DNA of 64,000 nt from Anaerolineaceae bacterium (lineage in GTDB: Bacteria; Chloroflexota; Anaerolineae; Anaerolineales; Anaerolineaceae). The number at the start of each line of letters is the position of its first letter. Positions within the stretch are counted from its first letter, which is position 1. Below are positions 30,030 through 43,133 of this stretch, piece by piece. Made by a program: the position numbers and the translations under genes. The notes under the pieces were generated by a model. That model saw only the letters and a program-made list of their open reading frames with translations, was not told the origin of the DNA and did no database searches. The stretch is from contig JAENYZ010000001.1 in assembly GCA_016841525.1 (NCBI GenBank), forward strand, positions 558,001-622,000, given 5' to 3'.

Positions 30030-32129
30030 TTATTTGTCTGCCATAATTATGCGCGCATCCAATACGATTCCGCCCTCACCTTCTGGTAAGACCAGCAAGG
30101 GGTTAATTTCAATCTCCGAAACCTGTGGGAAGTCCAAAGATAACTGGCTTAACCTGCCGATCACCTCAACGACCGCACCGAGATCATAAACGGGTCCGCC
30201 CCTGAAACCCTGTAAAAGCCTGCCTGCCTTCGTCGAAAAGATCATCTCTTTTGCATACTCAGGCGAAAGAGGCGCAACACCAAAACCAACATCCTTGAAC
30301 AACTCAACATAGACACCACCCAAGCCAAACATCATCAAAGGTCCAAAAGTCGGGTCACGACGCATCCCAACGATAACCTCAAGCCCCTTGGGTGCCATTT
30401 TTTCCACCAGGTAACCATCTATTATCGCATCTTTTGCCCCAGCAGTAATTTTCTCTTTCATTGCCTCTATGGCATTTTTCAGAGCGCTGTCAGAATCAAT
30501 ATTGAGTGCAATCCCCCCCATATCAGATTTGTGCAGTATTTGTTCAGACACCACCTTCAAGGCAACAGGATACCCGATTTCCCCAGCAATTTCCGCGGCT
30601 TGCTCAAAATCCTCCGCAAATCCACCCGGGACAAGCGCCATGCCGTATGCATCCAGTATCGGGCGTGTATCCGCTTCGCCAAGCGCTGCTTTGTTGATCC
30701 AGGAAAAAGCCCTTGCAACTTCAGAACGATAAATGTCGCTAAAAGAAAATGCCTCTGATTTCAGCTTATCTTTCCAGCTTTTGTACCTTGCCATTGCCCC
30801 CAATACCTGTCCTGGAACTTCCGGGAAAATCGTCATTGGGACTTTATTCTGATGCAGCACCATCCGGGCTTCATCCAAGCTCTTTTCACCGACCATGCAA
30901 GCAAGAACGGTTTTCTGAGTCTTGTTTGCATTTTCAACGATTGCCCGGGCAACATCCCCCGGGTCAACCAGGGCTTGTGGGACTAAAATTGGTAAAAATG
31001 CATCCACACCGGGGTCATCCAGCAGCGTCGATAGACAATGAGAGAATTCCTCTGGCTCTGCACCGCCCAGCATATCCACAGGGTTGGAAACCTGTGCACT
31101 CGGATTGAGTTTTTCTGCCAGTTGTTTCTGCTTTTCCTCGCCAAAGTTTGCCAGGGTAAACCCGTTCGCAGCCAGCGAATCTGAAGCCAGTGCAGCCGGG
31201 CCGCCAGCATTTGTAAAAATTGCTACACGATTTCCCTCGGGCAGTGACTGACAGCTCAATGCCCAGGCAACATCAAATAACGAAGCTAAATCCGGAACCT
31301 CGATCACACCAGCTTGCTTGAAGGCAGCCTGGTAAGCTGTGTAAGCACCTGCCAGGGACCCGGTATGCGAGGAGACTGCTCGGGCACCAGCATCTGACCT
31401 GCCAGCTTTTAGCAGGACGATTGGCTTTTCTTTTGATACCTGGCTGGCAACTTCCAAAAACTTTTGCCCGTCCTGGATACCTTCAACATAAGCGGCTATC
31501 ACCTTCACCCGGGGATGCTCGCCAAAATAAGCGATCATATCGGTTTCATCAACATCCAGTTCATTCCCCAAACTGGCAAAATGAGAAAAACCAATGTGTT
31601 TGTTGGCAATGTAATCCACCACGCCGCCGCAAACCGCCCCGGACTGTGAAAGGAAACCAATCGCACCTTTATCGGGAACACCTTCAATGAAGGTTGTATT
31701 CAAACCCGTATGTAAATCCATGGTACCAACGCAGTTAGGACCAATCAATCGCATGCCGTATTCTGCTGCGATCTGGCTGCATTCCTGCTCTAATTGGAGC
31801 CCATTCTCGCCAATCTCTCGGAAACCACCTGAGATGATGATCACGGCTTTGATCCCCCGTTCACCGCAATCACGCAATACTTTGGGTGTCATTGGCGCCG
31901 GTAAAACAATCACTGCAAGGTCAACAGGGTCAGGCACAAGCGAAACGTCAGGAAAGCTTTTTAATCCCAGGATCTGATCTGCACCTGGATTAACAGGATA
32001 AATCCCGCCTTCAAACCCGTATAAGCTCAAATTTTTTAAAATGCCATGACTTAACTTCCGGGGATTTGTGGAAGCGCCAATGATTGCTACCCCTTTTGGT
32101 GAGAAAAAAGGTGCCAGGTCACTTGTCAT
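30030..32129 (-). CDS. ADP-forming acetate/acyl-CoA synthetase (single-chain)
   Basis: A 699-aa fused acyl-CoA synthetase: acyl-CoA + ADP + Pi to acid + ATP + CoA, the usual ATP-gaining step of peptide or sugar fermentation. The N-terminal CoA-binding domain has FFSPKGVAIIGASTNPRKL and IYPVNPG. The Succ-CoA-ligase-like domains follow, with the phospho-histidine loop VSSHTGSLAG (about 255-264) and FTNAGGPAALASDSL. The C-terminal ATP-grasp domain (about 470-699) shows GYPVALKVVSEQILHKSDMGG and EINPLLVLPEGEG. Alpha and beta parts are fused in one chain, as in bacterial and thermococcal homologues. Substrate range is not predictable from sequence. Confidence 0.92.
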   Translation of the reverse strand: MTSDLAPFFSPKGVAIIGASTNPRKLSHGILKNLSLYGFEGGIYPVNPGADQILGLKSFPDVSLVPDPVDLAVIVLPAPMTPKVLRDCGERGIKAVIIISGGFREIGENGLQLEQECSQIAAEYGMRLIGPNCVGTMDLHTGLNTTFIEGVPDKGAIGFLSQSGAVCGGVVDYIANKHIGFSHFASLGNELDVDETDMIAYFGEHPRVKVIAAYVEGIQDGQKFLEVASQVSKEKPIVLLKAGRSDAGARAVSSHTGSLAGAYTAYQAAFKQAGVIEVPDLASLFDVAWALSCQSLPEGNRVAIFTNAGGPAALASDSLAANGFTLANFGEEKQKQLAEKLNPSAQVSNPVDMLGGAEPEEFSHCLSTLLDDPGVDAFLPILVPQALVDPGDVARAIVENANKTQKTVLACMVGEKSLDEARMVLHQNKVPMTIFPEVPGQVLGAMARYKSWKDKLKSEAFSFSDIYRSEVARAFSWINKAALGEADTRPILDAYGMALVPGGFAEDFEQAAEIAGEIGYPVALKVVSEQILHKSDMGGIALNIDSDSALKNAIEAMKEKITAGAKDAIIDGYLVEKMAPKGLEVIVGMRRDPTFGPLMMFGLGGVYVELFKDVGFGVAPLSPEYAKEMIFSTKAGRLLQGFRGGPVYDLGAVVEVIGRLSQLSLDFPQVSEIEINPLLVLPEGEGGIVLDARIIMADK

Positions 32130-32215: not shown

Positions 32216-32221
32216 TATAAT
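32216..32221 (+). promoter_or_regulatory. TATAAT box six bases before ATG 32228
   Basis: A perfect TATAAT separated by only 6 bases from the chosen start codon, with no ribosome site between. A transcript from it would begin at or next to the A of ATG, i.e. leaderless. -35 is weak (TTCGAA at 32194). Confidence 0.4.
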
Positions 32222-32227
32222 TCAACC

Positions 32228-34351
32228 ATGCCCTTAACAGCGGACCAGGAAAAGCTCTTAAAGCAGGATATAAAATCAAAGTACTTCTTACAAGGCCCTG
32301 CAGGTTCCGGGAAGACAAGAGCTGGGACCCATTGGCTTATGAAGTTAATCCAGGCGGGTATTCCCCCTCATCAGATATTGATATTTACCCCCCAACGGAC
32401 CTTATCCTTAGCCTATCAAAATGCCCTATATCAAGAAGAGGTGCAAGCCCCTGGACCTGTCAATTCCCTCACACTGGGCGGTTTGGCACGCCGCATGGTG
32501 GACTTGTTCTGGCCACTTGTAGGCGTTGATGCCGGCTTTGGTGCACCCAACAAAGCACCCAACTTCCTGACCCTCGAGACCGCCCAGTATTACATGGCAC
32601 ACCTGGTGCAACCCTTGATCGAAGAAAAAGGCTTGTTTGACAGCCTGACAATTAATCGAAACCGCATCTATGCCCAGATCCTGGACAACCTGAATAAAGC
32701 CGCTGTGGTCGGTTTCCCTTACGAGGAAATCGGAGGACGTTTAAAGTCTGCATGGGTGGGCGATATTGAACAACTGCACATTTATGATGATGTGCAATTT
32801 TGTGCAGATCAATTCAGGTCTTTTTGCCTGGAGAACAATTTACTCGACTTTTCCCTTCAGGTAGAGGTCTTTTTGAAATACCTGTGGACATCCCCGATGT
32901 GCCGCGCTTATCTATCCCAATCCTATCGACACCTGATCGTGGATAACATTGAGGAAGATACCCCCGTCACCCATGACATCTTGAAAGAATGGCTGCCTGA
33001 TTTTGAATCAGCCCTGATCATCTTTGATCAGGATGCAGGCTACCGATCCTTCCTGGGGGCAGATGTTGAAAGTGCCCGATCCCTCAAAGATTCCTGTGAT
33101 AAAATCATCAATTTCGATAAAAACCTCGTCTCCGGAGATGGCATCAGGCAGGTCACCCTCGGGATCAACAATGCCATCGCTCGATTAAAAGGAACCCCCC
33201 AGCCAAATCCAGAACCCTCATTTGAAGCAGTGCGCACTGCTATTGTCTCGCCTGCAGAGAATCCTAAATATTTTCCGGGGATGGTTGCCTGGGTTGCTGA
33301 CCAGATTGCCAACCTGATAAGTAACGACGTCCCACCGGGTGAAATCGTTGTCCTGGCACCCTTTATGCCCGATGTGCTCCGTTTCACCCTCACTAACCGG
33401 CTGGACGAATTGGGCATTCCTAACCGGTCACACCGTCCATCTCGATCACTGAGGGATGAACCCGCAACCCAAACCATGTTGACCCTGGCACAGATTGCTT
33501 TCCAATCATGGGAGACGCTCCCGGAACGAATTAACCTCGCCTATGCACTTGTACAGGCAATCGATGGGCTTGACCTTGTGCGCGCACAGCTTCTAACAGC
33601 CTATGCCTATAAAAAATCGGAGTCTGATTTTCCGCTGCAGCCATTTGAAGCAATCCCTCCCCGTGTGCGGGACCGGGTCACCTTCAGAGTGGGAGAACGT
33701 TACGACCACTTGCGAAACTGGCTGGAAAAGGTCAATGAACAGGCAGAACTTCCCCTCGATTTCTTTCTCAACAAGCTATTCGGTGAGGTTCTCAGCCAAC
33801 CCGGGTACGGCTTTCATGATCAATTAGACAGCGGCAATACCGTTGCCATGCTGATTGAGTCCATCCAAAAATTTCGCTGGGCATTTGGCGAACAGCTAAT
33901 TTCAGATGAAATTTCTATTGGAAAAGAATACATCCAGATGGTCAACGAAGGGGTTATCGCCGCACAATACGTGCAGAGCTGGGAAACAGCGGATGAGGAT
34001 GCCGTTTTGCTCTCACCAGCTTATACTTTCTTGATCAGTAACCGCCCCGTCGATGTTCAATTTTGGCTGGATGTTGGCAGCCCAAGCTGGTACCAGCGTT
34101 TGAATCAACCCCTGACCCACCCCTACGTCCTCAGCAGGACCTGGGAGCATGGTGAGTTTTGGGATTCTGAAGATGAACTTGCTGCCTCTTACCAAACCCT
34201 CCAGCGTCTCTCCATTGGGCTGCTCAACCGGTGCCGGAAAAAAGTTTACCTCGGCATGAGCGACCTGGATGTGCGCGGTTATGAAAACCGTGGATTGCTG
34301 ATCCGTATCGTCCAGAATATTTTGCAGCACGCCAGGCGGGAAACATCATGA
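32228..34351 (+). CDS. UvrD/AddB-like helicase-fold protein with degenerate Walker B
   Basis: A 707-aa SF1-type helicase homologue. The frame is open from 32084, but that would overlap the divergent gene; ATG 32228 gives MPLTADQEKLLKQDIKSKYF. Walker A is intact (LQGPAGSGKTRAGTHWL, about 21-37). Motif II is LIVDNIEED (about 237-245), with Asn instead of the catalytic Glu of DExQD. Motif III-like FDQDAGYRSFLGAD follows, and a motif VI-like region GLLNRCRKKVYLGMS lies near 664. No nuclease domain is visible. By position and degeneracy it plays the AddB/RecC/AdnA-like subunit beside the active helicase encoded next, which its stop overlaps (ATGA). ATP may be bound but hydrolysed poorly. Confidence 0.8.
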   Translation: MPLTADQEKLLKQDIKSKYFLQGPAGSGKTRAGTHWLMKLIQAGIPPHQILIFTPQRTLSLAYQNALYQEEVQAPGPVNSLTLGGLARRMVDLFWPLVGVDAGFGAPNKAPNFLTLETAQYYMAHLVQPLIEEKGLFDSLTINRNRIYAQILDNLNKAAVVGFPYEEIGGRLKSAWVGDIEQLHIYDDVQFCADQFRSFCLENNLLDFSLQVEVFLKYLWTSPMCRAYLSQSYRHLIVDNIEEDTPVTHDILKEWLPDFESALIIFDQDAGYRSFLGADVESARSLKDSCDKIINFDKNLVSGDGIRQVTLGINNAIARLKGTPQPNPEPSFEAVRTAIVSPAENPKYFPGMVAWVADQIANLISNDVPPGEIVVLAPFMPDVLRFTLTNRLDELGIPNRSHRPSRSLRDEPATQTMLTLAQIAFQSWETLPERINLAYALVQAIDGLDLVRAQLLTAYAYKKSESDFPLQPFEAIPPRVRDRVTFRVGERYDHLRNWLEKVNEQAELPLDFFLNKLFGEVLSQPGYGFHDQLDSGNTVAMLIESIQKFRWAFGEQLISDEISIGKEYIQMVNEGVIAAQYVQSWETADEDAVLLSPAYTFLISNRPVDVQFWLDVGSPSWYQRLNQPLTHPYVLSRTWEHGEFWDSEDELAASYQTLQRLSIGLLNRCRKKVYLGMSDLDVRGYENRGLLIRIVQNILQHARRETS

Positions 34352-36594
34352 CGCCAGCGGTAACCGTACTCAGACCCGGGCAGGAAAAAATCCTCCAGTA
34401 CCATTCCGGGAAAATGGGCATCAGTGCTGTCCCTGGCAGCGGAAAAACATGGACCCTCTCCTACCTGGCTTCAAAATTGATCCGTGAAAGTGCAATTGAT
34501 ATCAACCAGGAAATTCTGATCGTGACTTTGGTCAACGCTGCCGTTGACAATTTTTCCATTCGGATTTCGCACCAATTACTGGCTGAAGACCTGCTGCCAG
34601 GCTTTGGATACCGCATCCGCACCCTTCACGGTCTTGCCAACGACATTGTTCGTGAAAGACCCGACCTGGCAGGATTGAGCACAGGCTATCAAATCATTGA
34701 TGAGGTCGAAGCAAATCGTATCAAGCAAAGCATTGCCAGGGACTGGTTGAACGCTCACATTGATTTTTTTGAACCCTATTTGCAATACGAAGACTATCAA
34801 AAAGATCGACTATACGAAAATAAAAATAACCTGCCCTATTTAGTCGAATCAATCGCAAGCGCCTTCATTCGTCTTTCAAAGGATCGGCAGCTCACACCCA
34901 AAGCCCTGCGAGAAAAGCTTGGTCAAAGTCAAATTTCACTGCCACTGGTTGAAATGGGCATAGAAATCTACAGCGATTACCAGGATGCCCTCAACTACCG
35001 CGGCAGTGTTGACTTTGATGACCTGATACGCCTTGCTTTGCGCTGCCTCAAATCAGACCCTTCGCTGGTTGATATTCTGCGGCAGCGATGGCCGTATATT
35101 TTAGAAGACGAAGCACAGGATTCAAGTTTGCTGCAGCAGGAGATCCTTTCACTCCTGGCGGGCGAAAACGGCAACTGGGTGCGAGTTGGCGACCCTAACC
35201 AGGCAATCTATGAGACCTTTACCACAGCCAGCCCTCAGTACCTGCTCGATTTCTTAAAAAGAAAGGACGTTGAAGAACGCTCCCTGCCAGAAAGCGGTCG
35301 CTCAACATTGAGCATCATTGATCTTGCCAACCATCTGATAAACTGGACGCAGAACGAACATCCCAATCCTGAAGCTAGAATTGCTCTCAACCCACCTTTG
35401 ATCAAACCCACCCCATCGGGTGACCCGCAGCCAAATCCGGATGACTGCCCATCCTGCATTAAATTGATCGAGAAAGCCCTCAGCCCGGAGCAGGAAATCC
35501 GTTTTGTGGCAGACGCCGTTGAAGCATTTTTGCAGGATCATCCCGATAAAACCATCGCAATTCTTGCACCAAGGAATAACCGCGGCTTTAAGTTCGTGGA
35601 TGAGCTCGAAAAACGGAAGATCCCTACGGTGGACAGCTTGCTGCAATCAACAAGTGCGACGCGATTATCGACCGGTGCAATTGCAAATATCCTGCATTAC
35701 CTGGGCGATCCTGAATCCAGCCATAAGCTGTCACTGGCATATAAAGTTTGGCGGCGTGCTGAACGATCAGATGAGGAAAACTGGGCTTTTTACAAAGGAA
35801 ATATCAGCCTGATTAGAGGGATTGACCACGTGGAAGATTATTTGTGGCCGGGGATCACCGAGGATTGGCTTGATTCTCTTCAACAAGAGGAAGAAGATCC
35901 ACAAATCATTGGAGAATTGGAATCCTTCAGAGAAGTGGTCAGACGCTGGCAAAACGCCGTCTTCTTACCCATTGACCAGTTAATCCTGACGATTTCACAG
36001 GACCTGTTCCTGGACCCATCCGAGTTAGCTCTGGCTCATAAGCTTTCCTCATTACTACGCCAATTAGGCGATGCACACCCAGACTGGCGATTGCCAGAAT
36101 TTACAGATGAGCTGGCAAATATCGCTAAAAATGAACGCAAATTCCTTGGTTTCTCCCAGGAGGATGAGGCTTTCAACCCCGATCTCTACCCGGGTAAGGT
36201 GGTCGTTGCCACCATGCACAAAGCGAAGGGATTGGAATGGGACTGCGTTTTCATAACCGCCGTCAACAATTACAATTTCCCTTCTGGTGCAGAATTTGAC
36301 AACTTCCAATCCGAAAAATGGTTTGTCAAAGACCATCTCAATATGGAAGCAGAGCTCATCAACCAGCTTAAAACACTGATCGAGGCTGATCCCTTTGACT
36401 GGTACCTACCCGGACGGGCATCCATGGATGCACGGCATGAATTCATTCGTGAAAGGCTAAGGCTGCTCTTTGTTGGCATCACCCGGGCACGAAAATTCCT
36501 GACGATCACCTGGAATACCGGTCGGGTTTCGAACCGCAACTTCCCTGCGCTTGCTTTGCTGGAATTGATCAACGCTGTGGAGAAAAAGCAATGA
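34348..36594 (+). CDS. UvrD/AddA-type ATP-dependent DNA helicase
   Basis: A 748-aa SF1A helicase with all core motifs: Walker A AVPGSGKTWTLSYLA (about 26-40), motif II ILEDEAQDSS (about 251-260), motif III GDPNQAIYETF, motif V TMHKAKGLEWDCVFIT (about 621-636) and motif VI LRLLFVGITRARKFL (about 705-719). It is somewhat longer than a minimal UvrD and lacks a fused nuclease, which is instead encoded separately downstream. Starts within the previous stop codon (ATGA) and its stop overlaps the next start (ATGA). Likely the motor of the resection complex. Confidence 0.9.
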   Translation: MTPAVTVLRPGQEKILQYHSGKMGISAVPGSGKTWTLSYLASKLIRESAIDINQEILIVTLVNAAVDNFSIRISHQLLAEDLLPGFGYRIRTLHGLANDIVRERPDLAGLSTGYQIIDEVEANRIKQSIARDWLNAHIDFFEPYLQYEDYQKDRLYENKNNLPYLVESIASAFIRLSKDRQLTPKALREKLGQSQISLPLVEMGIEIYSDYQDALNYRGSVDFDDLIRLALRCLKSDPSLVDILRQRWPYILEDEAQDSSLLQQEILSLLAGENGNWVRVGDPNQAIYETFTTASPQYLLDFLKRKDVEERSLPESGRSTLSIIDLANHLINWTQNEHPNPEARIALNPPLIKPTPSGDPQPNPDDCPSCIKLIEKALSPEQEIRFVADAVEAFLQDHPDKTIAILAPRNNRGFKFVDELEKRKIPTVDSLLQSTSATRLSTGAIANILHYLGDPESSHKLSLAYKVWRRAERSDEENWAFYKGNISLIRGIDHVEDYLWPGITEDWLDSLQQEEEDPQIIGELESFREVVRRWQNAVFLPIDQLILTISQDLFLDPSELALAHKLSSLLRQLGDAHPDWRLPEFTDELANIAKNERKFLGFSQEDEAFNPDLYPGKVVVATMHKAKGLEWDCVFITAVNNYNFPSGAEFDNFQSEKWFVKDHLNMEAELINQLKTLIEADPFDWYLPGRASMDARHEFIRERLRLLFVGITRARKFLTITWNTGRVSNRNFPALALLELINAVEKKQ

Positions 36595-37430
36595 AACTAC
36601 CCGAAGATTTTGATTTCACTCAGAGCAATCTCAAAGATTACCTGGATTGTCCCTATCGCTTTTATTTAAAATATATTTTGCATACAAAATGGCCGGCACT
36701 GCTGGTTGATGACGCACTTGTGTTTGAAGAAAGAAGCAAAGCAGGTGCCCGCTTCCACCGTTTGATCCAGCAGTATTTACTAGGTATCCCACAATCCCGC
36801 CTGGATGCAATCGCTGAAATTGATCCTAATCCTGACCTTATCAAATGGTGGGAGAATTTTCTTGAGAATGTTCCCCATTTGCTTGAGGGGCAGCGATATG
36901 TAGAAACAAGCCTGAGCACGCCGATGCTCAACCAGCGGCTTGTCGCCAAATATGACCTGGTTTTAGTGCAGGATCAGTCACAACTTGTCATTTTCGACTG
37001 GAAGACATCGGGCAAGCGGCAGCGAAAAGAATGGCTGCTCGACCGGGTCCAAACCCGGCTATATCGCTACATCCTCGCAAGAGCGGGGGGCAGCCTGACA
37101 GGTACAGCTGAAATCAGTCCCCAGCAAATCACGATGAATTACTGGTTTGCGCCGCATCCAGAGGCACCAATATCCTTGCCCTACAACCAAAAAGCCTTTC
37201 AAGCGGATCAAACCTTTTTCGAAAATTGCATACAAGAAATCCTTGATCGAAACGAAGAAAATTTTTTCCGCACCGATGACGAGCGGAAATGCCGCTACTG
37301 CCTCTACCGCTCCCATTGTGATCGTGGGGTCAATGCAGGTGATCTGCAAGGTTTCGATGCCTTCGAGTTGGATGCGGAAGATTTCGAATTCGATCTCGAT
37401 TTTGACCAAATACAGGAAATTGAATTTTAA
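36591..37430 (+). CDS. PD-(D/E)XK nuclease with four-cysteine (Fe-S type) cluster motif
   Basis: A 279-aa RecB/Cas4-like nuclease. N-terminal TQSNLKDYLDCPYRFYLKYI supplies the first cysteine (about 20); GARFHRL contributes the active-site His; acidic strand AKYDLVLV, then VIFDWKTSGK (about 136-145) gives the D-x-K pair; QTRLYRYIL is the QxxxY motif. CRYCLYRSHC (234-243) completes the C...C-x2-C-x5-C cluster seen in AddB and Cas4. The C-terminal 30 residues are very acidic (EDFEFDLDFDQ). It supplies the nuclease activity that the two helicase-like subunits lack. No cas1/cas2 or repeat array is near, so Cas4 function is unlikely. Confidence 0.88.
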   Translation: MKLPEDFDFTQSNLKDYLDCPYRFYLKYILHTKWPALLVDDALVFEERSKAGARFHRLIQQYLLGIPQSRLDAIAEIDPNPDLIKWWENFLENVPHLLEGQRYVETSLSTPMLNQRLVAKYDLVLVQDQSQLVIFDWKTSGKRQRKEWLLDRVQTRLYRYILARAGGSLTGTAEISPQQITMNYWFAPHPEAPISLPYNQKAFQADQTFFENCIQEILDRNEENFFRTDDERKCRYCLYRSHCDRGVNAGDLQGFDAFELDAEDFEFDLDFDQIQEIEF

Positions 37431-39739
37431 TGCCGCCTCAAAAAAACTGGGTATTCAGAAAGAAATTGAGCGTACCTGATGACTTTCAAAAAGCAATCGG
37501 CGGTCATCCCCTGGTTGCTCAAACCCTCTACAGGCGCGGCATTCGTACAATTGAAGAAGCACAAGCATTCCTTCATCCTGAGAATGTCACCCCCACCCCG
37601 TCAGAGCAGCTCCCCGATATTAAAATTGCCCTCCCCTTGTTAATCGATGCCGTCAATAAACAAAAACACATCCTGGTTTGGGGAGATTTTGATGTTGATG
37701 GGCAGACAGCCACAACCATCCTGGTTGAGGGGCTGCGTGAACTCAGCGGTTTTGTCAGCTATCATATCCCGGTCAGGGGAGAAGAATCCCATGGGATAAG
37801 CAGGAAAGTCCTTGAGCAATATCTCGGAGAGGGGTTTGATCTTTTGCTAACCTGCGACACGGGCATATCCGAGCTTGAAAACATTCAATTTGCTCGCAAC
37901 GCGGGGAAAACCGTGATCGTCACCGACCATCACAGCCTGGGAGAAAGCCTGCCGCCAGCCAATGCTGTGGTTAACCCCCAGCGTCTGCCTGAAGACCATC
38001 CCCTGGCAACCTTGCCGGGCGTCGGTGTTGCATATAAGCTAATGGAAGCCCTCTTCAACGCGGAAAACAAGGCATTTGAGGAAGGCAGGTATCAGGAGTT
38101 GGCAGCCCTGGGGATTGTGTCTGACGTCGCTCGACTGAAAGGCGATGCACGATACATCCTTCAAAAAGGGCTGGAACATTTACGCAGCACAGGGCGATTA
38201 GGATTGCAAACCCTGTTTCGGGCAGCGGATCTGAACCCACAGAACCTGACCGAAACCCACATTGGCTTTCAGATCGCACCGAGGATGAACGCAGTTGGTC
38301 GATTGGGAAACGCCAACATGATGGTCGAGTTTCTAACCACAGAGGACAATGCACGGGCGCGGGTTTTGGGGATGCGCATTGAAGCCCTGAATGCCAAACG
38401 ACGTTCTGCCACCCGCCAGGTGGATCAAGCGGCTGAAGCGATGCTGCAAATGTCACCGGACGACCGCCGTGCGGATGCAATCGTGCTGCATTATCCCGAT
38501 TGGCCCGGAGGTGTAGTGGGGATCGTCGCCAGCCGCCTGGTTGAACGATACGGGAAGCCTGTGCTCTTATTGACCGGCAATGACCCCATCCACGGCTCTG
38601 CACGTTCCGTTGAAGGATTGAATATCACAGGGGCGATTGCTGCACAATCAGATCTGCTCAATGCTTTCGGCGGACACCCAATGGCGGCTGGGCTCTCCAT
38701 GGCGCCTGAGCATTATCCGGCATTCAAAAACCGGTTTATCAGTACCGTTGGCGAATTGCTCAAAGGTATTGAAATTACCCCCAAATTGTTAATCGATGAT
38801 GTCATCAGCCCTGACCAGGTCACTTTGGACATGGTGGAACAAATCGACCGCCTGGCACCCTTCGGTCCTGACAACCCACCGCTGAATTTCATGATACCCA
38901 GGCTGGACCTGGTCACAACTAAGGCAGTCGGTGCTTATGATGAACACCGGCAGGTATCAGCCGTGGACCAAGAAAAGAACGAAGCCCGTTTTATCTGGTG
39001 GAACGGTGGGGACGAACTGCCGCCTGACGCCCAATTTGACCTGGTCTGCCGGCTTTCGAGGACGGATTACAAAGGCTCGCCGCAGGTGAGTGCTGAATGG
39101 GTGGACTACCGCATTTCTGAACAAGGGTTGGTAGAAATTAAGCAACGCCATTTCGAAATTGTGGACCGACGCAGCATTCTTAATCCCTTACAGGAAGTTC
39201 TGGAATTCATTAAGGACAACCCTGATTCGCTGGTGTGGGCGGAAGGGATCTATCCCGACAGCCTACTGGGCAAGAGGCGTGATGAGTTATGGCGCACAAA
39301 AAACCTGGTTGTCTGGACAAGCCCACCCTCTCAAACTGTCTTGCAATCGGTCATTCGACGGACGAAACCAGAGAAGATCTACGTTTATGGGCGAAGCACT
39401 GGTTTGAACACTGAAAAAGCTTTTCTGCAAAGATTGGGCGGCTTGATCAAGTACACAATTAATCACAAAAATGGTGAAACCTCACTGGATGACCTCGCCG
39501 CTGCCTGTGCTGGAACAAAAGCAGCCGTTCAGTTTGGGCTTTCCTACTGGGAAGCTGCAGGAAGGATAATTTTAGATTTTCAGGAAGAAAAAGTGAACCT
39601 TAAACTATCGAAGGATGAACCTGACGACGCTGCTGCTGACATTTATGAGACATTGATCAATCAAGCAGTGAAAGAAAGCAATGCCTACAGGGCTTATTTT
39701 CGATCAGGTGATCTTAACACGTATCTCCAAGACATTTAA
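37430..39739 (+). CDS. recJ: Single-stranded-DNA-specific exonuclease RecJ
   Basis: A 769-aa DHH/DHHA1 phosphoesterase. Start ATG 37430 shares one base with the previous stop (TAATG). Motifs: LVWGDFDVDGQTATT (about 81-95), CDTGIS (about 143-148), VIVTDHHSLGESLPPANAVVNP (about 162-183), AALGIVSDVARL (about 224-235). The DHHA1 motif shows as SARSVEGLNI plus FGGHPMAAGLS (about 413-423), then an OB-fold (about 470-560). The last about 200 residues are an extra domain similar in position to the C-terminal part of Bacillus RecJ. It degrades ssDNA 5' to 3' during recombination and mismatch repair; operon linkage with the resection genes is consistent. Confidence 0.93.
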   Translation: MPPQKNWVFRKKLSVPDDFQKAIGGHPLVAQTLYRRGIRTIEEAQAFLHPENVTPTPSEQLPDIKIALPLLIDAVNKQKHILVWGDFDVDGQTATTILVEGLRELSGFVSYHIPVRGEESHGISRKVLEQYLGEGFDLLLTCDTGISELENIQFARNAGKTVIVTDHHSLGESLPPANAVVNPQRLPEDHPLATLPGVGVAYKLMEALFNAENKAFEEGRYQELAALGIVSDVARLKGDARYILQKGLEHLRSTGRLGLQTLFRAADLNPQNLTETHIGFQIAPRMNAVGRLGNANMMVEFLTTEDNARARVLGMRIEALNAKRRSATRQVDQAAEAMLQMSPDDRRADAIVLHYPDWPGGVVGIVASRLVERYGKPVLLLTGNDPIHGSARSVEGLNITGAIAAQSDLLNAFGGHPMAAGLSMAPEHYPAFKNRFISTVGELLKGIEITPKLLIDDVISPDQVTLDMVEQIDRLAPFGPDNPPLNFMIPRLDLVTTKAVGAYDEHRQVSAVDQEKNEARFIWWNGGDELPPDAQFDLVCRLSRTDYKGSPQVSAEWVDYRISEQGLVEIKQRHFEIVDRRSILNPLQEVLEFIKDNPDSLVWAEGIYPDSLLGKRRDELWRTKNLVVWTSPPSQTVLQSVIRRTKPEKIYVYGRSTGLNTEKAFLQRLGGLIKYTINHKNGETSLDDLAAACAGTKAAVQFGLSYWEAAGRIILDFQEEKVNLKLSKDEPDDAAADIYETLINQAVKESNAYRAYFRSGDLNTYLQDI

Positions 39740-40067: not shown

Positions 40068-43000
40068 TTATGGTGAAAAAATGATTGGCAGGTACAGATC
40101 GAAGGTAGGACCTTCCACAAAACTTAATGAAACGATGACCGGGTCATGGTCGCTGGATCGGTAGGCATCGGGTGCATAAAGTGCATCCTGTGCATCCTGT
40201 TTGAAGGTCATATCATAATCGATCAGATCAGGCTCATCGGCATTGATATGCCAGATCGCCACATCCACCACAGCACTTTGCATCTTTTTATTTGTCAAAG
40301 CGTAGTCGAGATAACCAATGTGCCCGTCAAAGACATAGCCATAAGCCTCTTCTCCTAAGACTTGATGGATCAGATCAACATAGTCGTCACCGGTCCCTAC
40401 TAAATCATCGGAACCCAGTTTGATGGCATCAATTGGGTCCTCTTTATCGTAAGAGTTCAGGTCACCAATGATCAGCACATTATCAACATCAGGGAAAATG
40501 GCGGGGTCTGCCAACCAATCAACCATGACTTCAGCCGCTGCTAAACGTGTCAGGTTACAATTGCCAGCACCATCACCCAAATCAGGGTCACCTACACATG
40601 CAGAACCTTTGGATTTTAAGTGATTGACAGCAACAATAAAGTCTTCTCCGGTTAATGGATCTTCAAAAACCTGCGCCAATGTCGGTCGGTTCTTCGTATC
40701 ATCGAAACCAGTATCATACGCAGATGTGAGTGCCTTGAATGTTCCGATTGGGGTGACATTGGCAGGTTTGTAGATGATGGCTTGCTTAATCGCATCCGTA
40801 CCAATTGCACCTGTGGGGATGTAATCATAAACGCCAGCGCCTGCAATATCGTTTAATCCCGCAACCAAGTCAGCGACAGCATAATCGGATGTGGATGCGC
40901 CTAATCGATCATTTTCAATTTCCATCAACCCAAAGACGTCCGCATCAATCTCTACCATGGCTGCCAGGATCTTGTCACGCTGACGGGTTAATTCGTCCGC
41001 TGTATCGGCGCCGCGGCATTCCATATCACCTGAAGGACCGCATATCCAGTCGCCTGTATCAATGGTTGTGAAGTAATTGAGCACGTTGAAACTGGCAACC
41101 TTCAAATCGCCCTCAACCAAATCGGGCGCAAGTGGACGGTCGTTCATCGGTGTATAATCAGCACCCTGGGTGGGTTGAATTCGATAAAGACTGAAGGCGT
41201 AGTCCATAACACCGGTCACATTGGCAACCAGGTCCCCACCACGGAAAAGATTATCCAAGGTGAATTCTTGCCCATTGGGATGAATCGCTGGGTCCGGATT
41301 CTGTACAGTCAGTCCATCATCCAATGTAATTTTGTTCAAGAAATATTCTTCAATGGATGCTTGATAAGCATCAAAGTCTGGCTCATGCAGAGCAGTAAAG
41401 GTCATATAACGTTCAGTACTCAAAACAATCTCGCCATAACGGTCAAAATTAAAGTATTCGGCAATCACCAGGTTCTGTGGGATAGTGACCAGCATACCTT
41501 CAAGCTTTTCAAATCCCAACGCATCTGCCACCGGTAAGGAAAGTTCTGATGGTTCAGGTAATGTCACACCAGTTGCACATAACCATGATTGGCTGGCACT
41601 GATTTGTGTCATGCCACTATATTCTGAAACCGTACCGCTTATTCGAACATGATCACCCACGTTTACATCAATGATATCCGAACCATAGGGTTCATAAATG
41701 AAAATGCCATCAGAGGTACTAGCATCCGAGTCTCCTGATAGATCCTGTATAAAGAAGCCGTATCTGGTCGTATCCTGGTAATCGCCTACAACAACACCTT
41801 CCGTTGAATGAGCTTCACCAGAAAGGGTGGTTTCTAATCCACTACCCTGGATAGTATATATGGGTGTATATGGATCCCCACATACTTCGGCAGGAGGTGT
41901 ATAAATTTCATTGGGATCTCCTGGCGTGTTATATGCTTCCCCTTCTGTTATTGTGCCAGCAAAACCGGGGATACCTGCCAAGTCAAAGTCGTTACGTATC
42001 CAATCTGTAACGGCATCGGTATCAAATCCGTCTGGAAATCGAGAGGCTCCGCCAGGTGGGAGCGTGCTAACGCCATCATAATTTCCATATAGCTCTGTCG
42101 TACCATAGGTGTAATCCCCTATACCACCATCATTGACAGCTACAGAATCAACTAATTCAGCCCATGGTTCTACATCCAAAACACCATCATCATTGGTGTC
42201 TAGATCATCGCTAAATGCGCCGGTGAAATCTTTCACAAGCAGCAATGATATTGATCCATTTTCCAAATTACCATTTATCAAGCTGGCAAGATATAGACCA
42301 TTGACATCTGTAGTCCCAACTTCAATCACCTCATCAATGACACCAGGAGCGGTGCTATCCCCTTCAATTTCTAACACTGTGTATGCTGAGTAATCAGTCT
42401 CAGGATCACCAAAGATTTCGACATATTCAACATCATCGCCATCTGTACTCGCTGAAAATTCATTAACTACAGGGTCAGATATATTAGAAACACAATTCTC
42501 ATTCCCTGGTGTAGGCACAAATTGAATATATGTATCTGTGTTGCGCAAACCCCCGCTGCCATTTGGACAGCGCTGGTTAGAGTGAAGTGTGCTATCACCT
42601 CCACCACCCTCATTTACTTGTAATTGGCCTGCGTTTAAGAGAACCAGCAAGCCTGGATCATCGTCATCATTAGTATCATAAACGAGAGCATCTATCAAAT
42701 TGGTTGTGGTGACAGGCGTTCCACTAGTAAAATCAACAGCATCACCTGCGTATAAAGCAACAGCATCTTGACCATTTTGTAAACTGCTAGTGGAAATTAT
42801 TATTGAAGGTTCTGGAATTACACCAATATTTCCTACTAAAAAATATCCGTTTTCGTCAGTTGAAAAACCATCTAAATCATAAGCGGCGTAAGAAATATCA
42901 CCATTTCCATTGAAAAAAACAAGGACCAACCCATCCAATGCCGTATTTCCCACTCCTCCATCATACAATTCAACAAATTCTGCTACATCTGTTCCCAATG

Positions 43001-43133
43001 TATCTGCATCAACTTCATTGATCAGAACAGTAGTGGTTTGAGCTAATGTGTTTGGTATCGGTAACACGCCCAGCGTACCGAATAAAAATACAAACACCAG
43101 TATTAAATTGAGCATTCTTGGTTTCCTCTTCAT
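40068..43133 (-). CDS. ExeM/NucH-type secreted endonuclease with lamin-tail domains
   Basis: A 1021-aa exported nuclease. Signal peptide about 1-31. Two lamin-tail (LTD) domains follow (about 33-215 and 220-410; VLINEVDADTLGTDVAEFVELYDGG, FVPTPGNENC, DDVEYVEIFGDP). An OB-fold-like part is at 420-640, then the endonuclease/exonuclease/phosphatase domain from about 672 (KVASFNVLNYFTT, FGLMEIEND, AVNHLKSKGSACVGD, ADPAIFPDVDNVLIIGDLNSYDKEDP, SDHDPVIV). The catalytic Glu, Asp-Asn and His-Asp sites look complete. It ends LYLPIIFSP, close to the YLPL-type C-terminus. AAGGAGG sits 8 bases before ATG 43133. Probable role: degrading extracellular DNA for nutrition or biofilm turnover. Confidence 0.92.
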   Translation of the reverse strand: MKRKPRMLNLILVFVFLFGTLGVLPIPNTLAQTTTVLINEVDADTLGTDVAEFVELYDGGVGNTALDGLVLVFFNGNGDISYAAYDLDGFSTDENGYFLVGNIGVIPEPSIIISTSSLQNGQDAVALYAGDAVDFTSGTPVTTTNLIDALVYDTNDDDDPGLLVLLNAGQLQVNEGGGGDSTLHSNQRCPNGSGGLRNTDTYIQFVPTPGNENCVSNISDPVVNEFSASTDGDDVEYVEIFGDPETDYSAYTVLEIEGDSTAPGVIDEVIEVGTTDVNGLYLASLINGNLENGSISLLLVKDFTGAFSDDLDTNDDGVLDVEPWAELVDSVAVNDGGIGDYTYGTTELYGNYDGVSTLPPGGASRFPDGFDTDAVTDWIRNDFDLAGIPGFAGTITEGEAYNTPGDPNEIYTPPAEVCGDPYTPIYTIQGSGLETTLSGEAHSTEGVVVGDYQDTTRYGFFIQDLSGDSDASTSDGIFIYEPYGSDIIDVNVGDHVRISGTVSEYSGMTQISASQSWLCATGVTLPEPSELSLPVADALGFEKLEGMLVTIPQNLVIAEYFNFDRYGEIVLSTERYMTFTALHEPDFDAYQASIEEYFLNKITLDDGLTVQNPDPAIHPNGQEFTLDNLFRGGDLVANVTGVMDYAFSLYRIQPTQGADYTPMNDRPLAPDLVEGDLKVASFNVLNYFTTIDTGDWICGPSGDMECRGADTADELTRQRDKILAAMVEIDADVFGLMEIENDRLGASTSDYAVADLVAGLNDIAGAGVYDYIPTGAIGTDAIKQAIIYKPANVTPIGTFKALTSAYDTGFDDTKNRPTLAQVFEDPLTGEDFIVAVNHLKSKGSACVGDPDLGDGAGNCNLTRLAAAEVMVDWLADPAIFPDVDNVLIIGDLNSYDKEDPIDAIKLGSDDLVGTGDDYVDLIHQVLGEEAYGYVFDGHIGYLDYALTNKKMQSAVVDVAIWHINADEPDLIDYDMTFKQDAQDALYAPDAYRSSDHDPVIVSLSFVEGPTFDLYLPIIFSP

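Follow-up and report, generated by a model that had tools for sequence, protein, structure and literature searches.

To our knowledge, RecBCD, AddAB and AdnAB all have their nuclease fused to a motor-like subunit. RecBCD processes DNA ends with one nuclease domain per complex, which is fused to RecB, can cut both strands and, as far as we know, lacks an iron-sulphur (Fe-S) cluster. Here, we describe a run of four overlapping genes, named A, B, C and D, in a 64,000-nucleotide stretch (the window) of contig JAENYZ010000001.1 from an Anaerolineaceae bacterium (GCA_016841525.1). In this module, a helicase-like subunit, a motor and a nuclease are encoded as separate polypeptides, followed by a RecJ, by family a 5'-3' single-strand exonuclease.

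RecBCD, AddAB and AdnAB are named together as three bacterial classes of DNA-end helicase-nucleases (PMC5030088). The strand degraded by the nuclease of AddB is the 5'-ended one, and Chi is believed to protect the 3' strand against the nuclease of AddA; the same source equates AdnA with AddB (PMC4824097). ATP hydrolysis was not detected for AdnA (PMC13309787). Two other sets deserve mention. UvrD-Cas4 fusions have been described, as well as UvrD and Cas4-like pfam12705 proteins encoded as two genes of one predicted operon in several bacteria, mostly Clostridiales (PMC5704561). In Synechococcus elongatus, both natural transformation and the transfer or maintenance of RSF1010 are favoured when any one of the following is lost: a Cas4-like nuclease, a UvrD protein (a PcrA paralogue), RecJcy (a paralogue of RecJ) or a PD-(D/E)XK protein (PMC10653904).

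Compared with these systems, the module resembles AddAB (RexAB), with which it shares a dead helicase-like subunit, a UvrD-type motor and a PD-(D/E)XK nuclease with cysteines of the Fe-S type, A and C corresponding to the two halves of AddB. However, it has three chains instead of two, a single nuclease domain and a RecJ companion (RecJ-L), and in relatives it coexists with AddAB. Neither AddAB subunit is found as such: B ends before the motor-fused C-terminal nuclease of AddA, whereas the dead helicase and the Fe-S nuclease, which form one chain in AddB, are separate genes with B between them. Judged by its sequence, the parts list is that of AddAB minus the AddA 3'-strand nuclease and with AddB cut in two. 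The likeness to AdnAB lies in the two UvrD-fold subunits and in the nuclease, which best matches that of AdnA; yet each AdnAB subunit has a fused nuclease (PMC13309787), whereas the module has one free-standing nuclease, and the catalytic Glu is missing from A. With RecBCD it would share DNA-end processing with one nuclease domain per complex. Unlike RecBCD, where this domain is fused to RecB, the module has no counterpart of RecC or RecD among its genes, and no RecB-type PF00580/PF12705 protein was found elsewhere in the genome, where RecC and RecD were not searched directly. For the UvrD/Cas4-like operon, neither a dead helicase subunit nor a RecJ paralogue is described in the available portions of PMC5704561. 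The cyanobacterial set resembles the module in its parts list (a second RecJ, a UvrD besides PcrA, PD-(D/E)XK nucleases), and a counterpart of A is not described in the available portions of PMC10653904. No description of the A-B-C-RecJ set was found among the matches listed in open-licence PMC papers; as far as these searches show, it is undescribed in the open literature and represents a variant of the helicase-nuclease type.

The four genes and their counterparts

The genes form one plus-strand run (Table 1), in which A and B overlap by four bases (ATGA), B and C by another four (ATGA), and C and D by one (TAATG). The start of A was taken as ATG 32228, the list of open reading frames (ORFs) prolonging this gene to a TTG at 32084. 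A preliminary description, made from the letters of the window, had read these junctions as a coupled operon for a UvrD-fold protein with a degenerate Walker B, a fully intact UvrD helicase, a free-standing PD-(D/E)XK nuclease with a C...CxxC-x5-C cluster, and RecJ. The ORF coordinates bear out the four genes and the three junctions, and the assignments are confirmed by the matches and conserved residues given below.

Table 1. Features of the module and its flanks, in positions of the window (aa, amino acids; nt, nucleotides)
Feature	Position	Strand	Basis or remark
Gene A, 707 aa, UvrD fold, intact Walker A, degenerate motif II (D-N-x-E-E)	32228..34351	+	Pfam, model, alignment
Walker A of A, residues 23-30, GPAGSGKT	32294..32317	+	G23, G28, K29 invariant 33/33
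Motif II of A, residues 239-244, DNIEED	32942..32959	+	N240, E242, E243 invariant 33/33
Gene B, 748 aa, UvrD-type helicase, intact motor motifs, without nuclease domain	34348..36594	+	Pfam, profiles, alignment
Gene C, 279 aa, free-standing PD-(D/E)XK nuclease, Fe-S type cysteines	36591..37430	+	Pfam, profiles, fold, alignment
C20 of C, first Cys of the C...CxxCx5C set	36648..36650	+	invariant 39/39
Nuclease core of C: D122, then D136-W-K138	36954..37004	+	invariant 39/39
C234-x2-C237-x5-C243 of C	37290..37319	+	invariant 39/39
Gene D, RecJ-L, 769 aa, second long RecJ paralogue	37430..39739	+	Pfam, NCBIfam, trees
C-terminal extension of RecJ-L	39065..39736	+	past end of same genome's short RecJ; 35% mean column identity, 26 rows
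TATAAT -10-like box	32216..32221	+	6 nt 5' of A ATG
Acyl-CoA synthetase-like gene	30030-32129	opposite to module	left neighbour
1021-aa protein, weak lamin-tail-domain match	40068-43133	minus	right neighbour

A matches PF00580 (E 7.5e-9), and its structure was predicted with a local distance difference test score (pLDDT) of 88.3 and a template modelling score (pTM) of 0.85. The catalytic Glu of motif II is replaced by Asn (N240) in all 33 aligned A proteins, with the pattern D/E-N-x-E-E, whereas Walker A is retained; at the place of the motif III Gln, as aligned by eye, 25 of these relatives have Ala and 8 have Gly. In the profile-profile comparison, residues 17-590 of A align to residues 23-583 of AddB, its N-terminal part (E 3.8e-12). 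A script-run comparison of profiles gave 6.8e-16 against AddB, 1.5e-12 against PcrA and 3.1e-9 against B. In the fold search, the model of A matches AdnB over its whole length (Z 24.9, 4.5 Å over 621 residues), AddB (Z 21.6, 5.7 Å over 609) and AddA (Z 20.7, 5.0 Å over 627). The AddB position aligned to the lost Glu is Gly in 13/13 sequences, whereas the Glu is intact in B (34/34) and AddA (13/13), the AddA and AddB alignments being made of relatives within this order only. At the level of motifs, the A/B pair appears to have the same asymmetry as AddAB, with one dead motor and one intact. A is a UvrD-fold subunit with a predicted AddB-like loss of catalysis, possibly descended from AddB, and the invariance of its dead motif II suggests the role of a structural partner.

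B matches PF00580 (1.7e-43) and UvrD_C (1.7e-23), and has the motor motifs of a UvrD/PcrA-type superfamily 1A helicase: G30, G32, K33, T34, the EDEAQD motif, G281, D282, Q285, R318, T712 and R713 are invariant in 34/34 relatives. Its profile aligns to the AddA motor (E 1.3e-38), and the alignment ends before the AddA nuclease. Against the NCBIfam model addA_Gpos it reached 70.1 bits (cut-off 707.65), although the two fused AddAB pairs of relatives that were run (of 13) also miss the AddA/AddB cut-offs. The best PADLOC match of B is a GajB model (E 5.7e-44; 25 of 52 B families listed). Gabija was nevertheless rejected: the GajB matches are read as the shared UvrD fold and no GajA model is among the listed matches of A, C and D, GajA not having been searched in the neighbourhood. 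The B gene of two loci (L105 and L214) is broken into at least two frames by either sequencing error or decay.

C matches PDDEXK_1 (PF12705, E 1.8e-27). It has both the D...DxK...QxxxY motif and the C...CxxCx5C set of RecB-family nucleases, with E105, D122, D136, K138, Q154 and Y158 as well as C20, C234, C237 and C243 kept in 39/39 proteins; these residues and the fold match place C in this family, with a putative Fe-S cluster. Its profile is closer to the nuclease of AddB than to that of AddA (E 5.1e-12 vs 1.7e-4; 5.6e-17 vs 2.9e-5 in the script-run comparison). The best fold match of its model is the nuclease domain of AdnA (Z 18.4, 2.7 Å over 224), followed by the ACE1 Cas4-like proteins (Z 15.4) and AddB (Z 15.1, 3.5 Å over 234). 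Against the AddA/AddB set of NCBIfam models it scores 9.4 bits (cut-off 903.7), a weak test, since the two fused AddAB pairs of relatives also fall below. A Cas4 role in CRISPR adaptation was rejected, C being far under the NCBIfam cut-offs for this family (15.9 bits vs 65 for TIGR00372, 21.7 vs 70 for TIGR04328).

D has DHH, DHHA1 and RecJ_OB domains and passes the NCBIfam recJ model (TIGR00644, 462.9 bits vs a cut-off of 396.9), and a second, ordinary RecJ of 579 aa is encoded on another contig of the same genome. Among the genome itself and 60 relatives, 40 encode C (E <= 0.001). A long RecJ, defined as an open frame of at least 720 aa, is found in 34 of these 40 genomes (37 counting three cut by contig ends), against none of the 21 without C. 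This last status is partly a matter of assembly, since contig ends hold A and B in G008 and G023 and a fragment of B in G042, and some of the 21 show only partial RecJ frames. In trees, a branch with full support separates the long RecJ proteins from the short ones. The long copies of G047 and G060, although unlinked to the module, join the long side, so RecJ-L goes with the module even when it is not adjacent. The preliminary description, which saw a RecJ added to a three-subunit enzyme, was right about its presence and understated its nature: RecJ-L is a separate paralogue that tracks C. Its C-terminal extension gave no firm family in a Pfam search of 26 members, three of which have a weak match to ssDNA-exonuc_C (PF10141, best E 0.002).

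Conservation and distribution of the module

The module is real, conserved and widespread in one class of Chloroflexota. In 39 loci fetched around C, the A-B-C order and strand are kept in 34 and RecJ comes next in 32, two of these (L108 and L111) after 1.1 and 2.5 kb, so the gene-order conservation that had been proposed as a check was obtained. The exceptions to the A-B-C order either lie where a contig starts or ends (L101, L118, and L109, where a partial B lies 2.2 kb from C) or have C apart from the other genes (L112, L115); in G024, RecJ stops at the contig edge. The junctions also overlap in most relatives: A-B in 29/34, B-C in 29/36 and C-D in 22/32, start codons having been chosen by script near those of the window. 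A second set, not independent of the first one because the two overlap (L105 and L161, for instance, are on contigs of one length, 43197), comprises 80 named loci, the best 80 of 536 relatives of A. All of them are titled Chloroflexota, mostly Anaerolineae, and the nearest record is a metagenome-assembled genome (MAG) of Brevefilum (93% in A). They include 33 A-B-C-D loci (two with B split into frames, one of these with D split too), 9 A-B-C, 19 A-B and 19 with only A, and short contigs are frequent among them. One A-B locus (L189) is titled Candidatus Aquidulcis, of the NCBI class Limnocylindria, and would be either a mislabelled MAG or a copy outside the Anaerolineae.

In a sample of 400 Chloroflexota genomes, strong matches to A (E below 1e-100) occur in 44 of the 55 genomes of the class and in none of the 345 outside it (counted by hand from the listing), where matches stay below 40 bits. 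In a set of 150 genomes of the class, 80 have A and 72 have C: 70 genomes have both, 10 only A, 2 only C and 68 neither. The resulting Fisher probability, 5e-29, is overstated because the genomes are related. A strong match to A or C means here E of about 1e-30 or below, and 7 weak A and 8 weak or partial C matches, including a contig-end fragment in G522, were dropped. Of 20 further chosen loci of the class, 15 are A-B-C, 8 of them also with D.

The cassette is also found in another phylum. Plasmid pSR56 of Salinibacter ruber M8 (NC_014028.1, Rhodothermota) carries a complete A-B-C-recJ set in the same order (L288, 8959-16842), annotated as hypothetical protein, ATP-dependent helicase, PD-(D/E)XK nuclease and recJ. 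The identities are 41.9% for A, 43.2% for B, 36.9% for C and 38.9% for RecJ, which is of the long kind; the DNxEE pattern is kept, as are all the motor, nuclease and Cys residues that were tested. The simplest reading is that the cassette was transferred as one unit, which strongly supports a joint function of the four genes.

As for the context in the 39 loci, a DnaQ-type (RNase_T) exonuclease gene precedes A in the same orientation in 9, from one part of the family (L108, L114, L117, L119, L123, L125, L126, L127 and L129), in four of them only 13-34 nt away. Downstream of the module, ssb is found in 7 loci, rpsF in 5 and an oxidoreductase-like gene, named by eye, in several. Pfam was run on two DnaQ-type proteins, two SSB and one S6 protein.

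A proposed DNA-end helicase-nuclease and its alternatives

From this analysis we consider it probable, with moderate confidence, that A, B and C make up an AddAB/AdnAB-like helicase-nuclease acting at DNA double-strand ends, with a dedicated RecJ-L, to produce 3' overhangs. We infer that the chains form one complex and that they are made in equal dosage. B would be the ATP-driven 3'-5' motor that unwinds DNA, whereas A would be a catalytically dead arm, probably still nucleotide-binding, which holds or senses the other strand as AddB and AdnA do. C, the only PD-(D/E)XK active site and of the AddB/AdnA type, would cut the 5'-ended strand, although in RecBCD the one nuclease, that of RecB, is able to cut either strand. 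RecJ-L would clear the same 5' strand further, and the product would be a 3' single-stranded tail for RecA. This may be achieved without a Chi switch, because a nuclease of the AddA kind, acting on the 3' strand, is absent from the module.

Several observations weigh against this proposal. B is slightly nearer to PcrA than to AddA in the script-run comparison (5.9e-67 vs 4.9e-59), and the model of A reaches Z up to 28.9 with UvrD, PcrA and Rep, above AdnB or AddB, with root mean square deviations of 8.3-11.5 Å in the nine best rows. The AddAB-like assignment made in the preliminary description is weakened to that extent. C is separate from A and B in G047 and G060, G029 and G031 have C with a short RecJ only, 10 of the 80 A-bearing genomes of the class lack a strong match to C, A stands alone in 5 of the 20 further loci, and some of the A-B or A-alone named loci have kilobases of contig left. 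Nor did rate covariation separate the partners of the module from an unlinked control: the partial correlations A-B, A-C and C-D are high, but an equally strong one (0.90, n=10) links A to the short RecJ, which is unlinked, and this makes the test uninformative. Against the earlier view of AddAB in pieces, relatives hold a fused AddB-AddA pair together with the module, 12 of 13 fetched AddAB pairs coming from genomes with C. In the 150 genomes, 28 have A and AddB (strong at E <= 1e-50), 52 have A without strong AddB, 14 AddB only and 56 neither. Since relatives carry both, the module is a separate system and not AddAB split within a lineage devoid of it; of the earlier view of a split AddAB or RecBCD, what stands is that A and C map to parts of AddB and B to the AddA motor.

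A first alternative is that the module acts as a barrier to foreign DNA, degrading incoming plasmid, phage and transforming DNA, with repair as a secondary role. The strikingly similar parts list of S. elongatus limits RSF1010 and transformation (PMC10653904), one full cassette is plasmid-borne (pSR56) and B has GajB as its best PADLOC match. In contrast, C falls under the Cas4 cut-offs, the presence of A in 80 of the 150 genomes would be more than expected of a defence gene, and the neighbour clusters found in at least 5 of the 39 loci include ssb, rpsF, an acyl-CoA synthetase-like gene and the DnaQ-type exonuclease. No defence gene was recognised among 11 neighbour clusters, three kinds of which were tested with Pfam. 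The presence of the DnaQ-type exonuclease, ssb and rpsF nearby favours replication and repair over defence, and we regard the barrier as unlikely.

Alternatively, the products could be four co-regulated repair enzymes that act in succession, in gap or fork repair with SSB and RecFOR, without ever forming one complex, A being a regulator. The resemblance of B to PcrA as much as to AddA, the separability of the genes in some genomes and the SSB gene in 7 of the 39 loci would fit this model. Nonetheless, the overlapping junctions, the close co-occurrence of A and C, the conservation of A with an invariant dead motif II, suggestive of a structural partner, and the same four-gene cassette in another phylum argue against it, and we regard this succession as unlikely too.

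Fission of the genes of an ordinary AddAB, with the split version taking the place of the fused one, is very improbable: even though A and C are collinear with AddB and B with AddA, and the genome is without AddAB by PF00580/PF12705 searches, 28 genomes hold A and AddB together, the AddA nuclease should remain somewhere while PF12705 finds only C, and AddB models are not among the NCBIfam matches listed for A at E up to 1. This inventory comes from a genome given as 97.3% complete, in which PF00580 matches only A, B and a PcrA, whose highest NCBIfam match is to pcrA (779 bits, which is below the cut-off of that model). The search for a canonical AddAB or RecBCD elsewhere, which the preliminary description had called for, thus found none with these two families, RecC and RecD not having been searched directly.

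Returning to the DNA-end helicase-nuclease, the module might tentatively be taken as a further class beside RecBCD, AddAB and AdnAB, defined by three chains, a single nuclease specific for the 5' strand, a dedicated RecJ, Chi-free 3' tails and a four-gene cassette mobile across phyla. If so, with motor, dead motor and nuclease on separate chains, any one role could be deleted or exchanged independently of the others, and it would become testable whether Chi control is needed only where a 3'-strand nuclease is present. The module also connects a second RecJ with a specific group of partners, and could be the DNA-break system of many Anaerolineae without AddAB, given the 52 of 150 genomes with A and no strong AddB, in which RecBCD and AdnAB were not searched.

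Flanking sequences and minor observations

The TATAAT box upstream of A is found at the same place in 13/13 aligned upstream regions (the window and 12 loci of the same genus). As it lies so close to the ATG, it suggests that A may be translated from a leaderless mRNA. By eye, these aligned regions showed TATAAT boxes only and no SOS-type box. The C-terminal part of the right neighbour reads by eye as what we take to be a secreted nuclease of the ExeM/NucH type.

Near the cassette of pSR56, genes are annotated as a recombinase, an XRE regulator and a SocA-domain antitoxin. The megaplasmid of Ilyobacter polytropus encodes a lone distant relative of A (L289, 6983-8956; 193 bits with the A profile), which keeps Walker A and N240 and mostly lacks the other A motifs; neither B nor C is among its annotated neighbours. 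A phage origin of the module was rejected, as the viral contigs searched held no relative of A.

Two genomes of this order contain UvrD and Cas4-like loci (L148 and L149) in surroundings unlike those of the module, beside HerA-like ATPases and, in L149, also NurA-like and type III restriction-like genes (names given by eye). They were considered as distant copies and rejected, since, judging by their ORF lists, these loci are of another kind. An N-terminal extension of about 600 aa in the A protein of L264 has no Pfam match and looks like an open-frame artefact of GC-rich DNA. In L265 (6685-10158, genome G472), DnaN, the beta clamp, and A share one open frame, which holds the sole DnaN match of that draft genome. 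A fusion was rejected because another frame has a stop after the DnaN end and there are Ns in the sequence, pointing to neighbouring genes and a likely sequence error. RecBCD has been reported to bind the clamp (PMC13254535), which makes the adjacency of DnaN and A suggestive.

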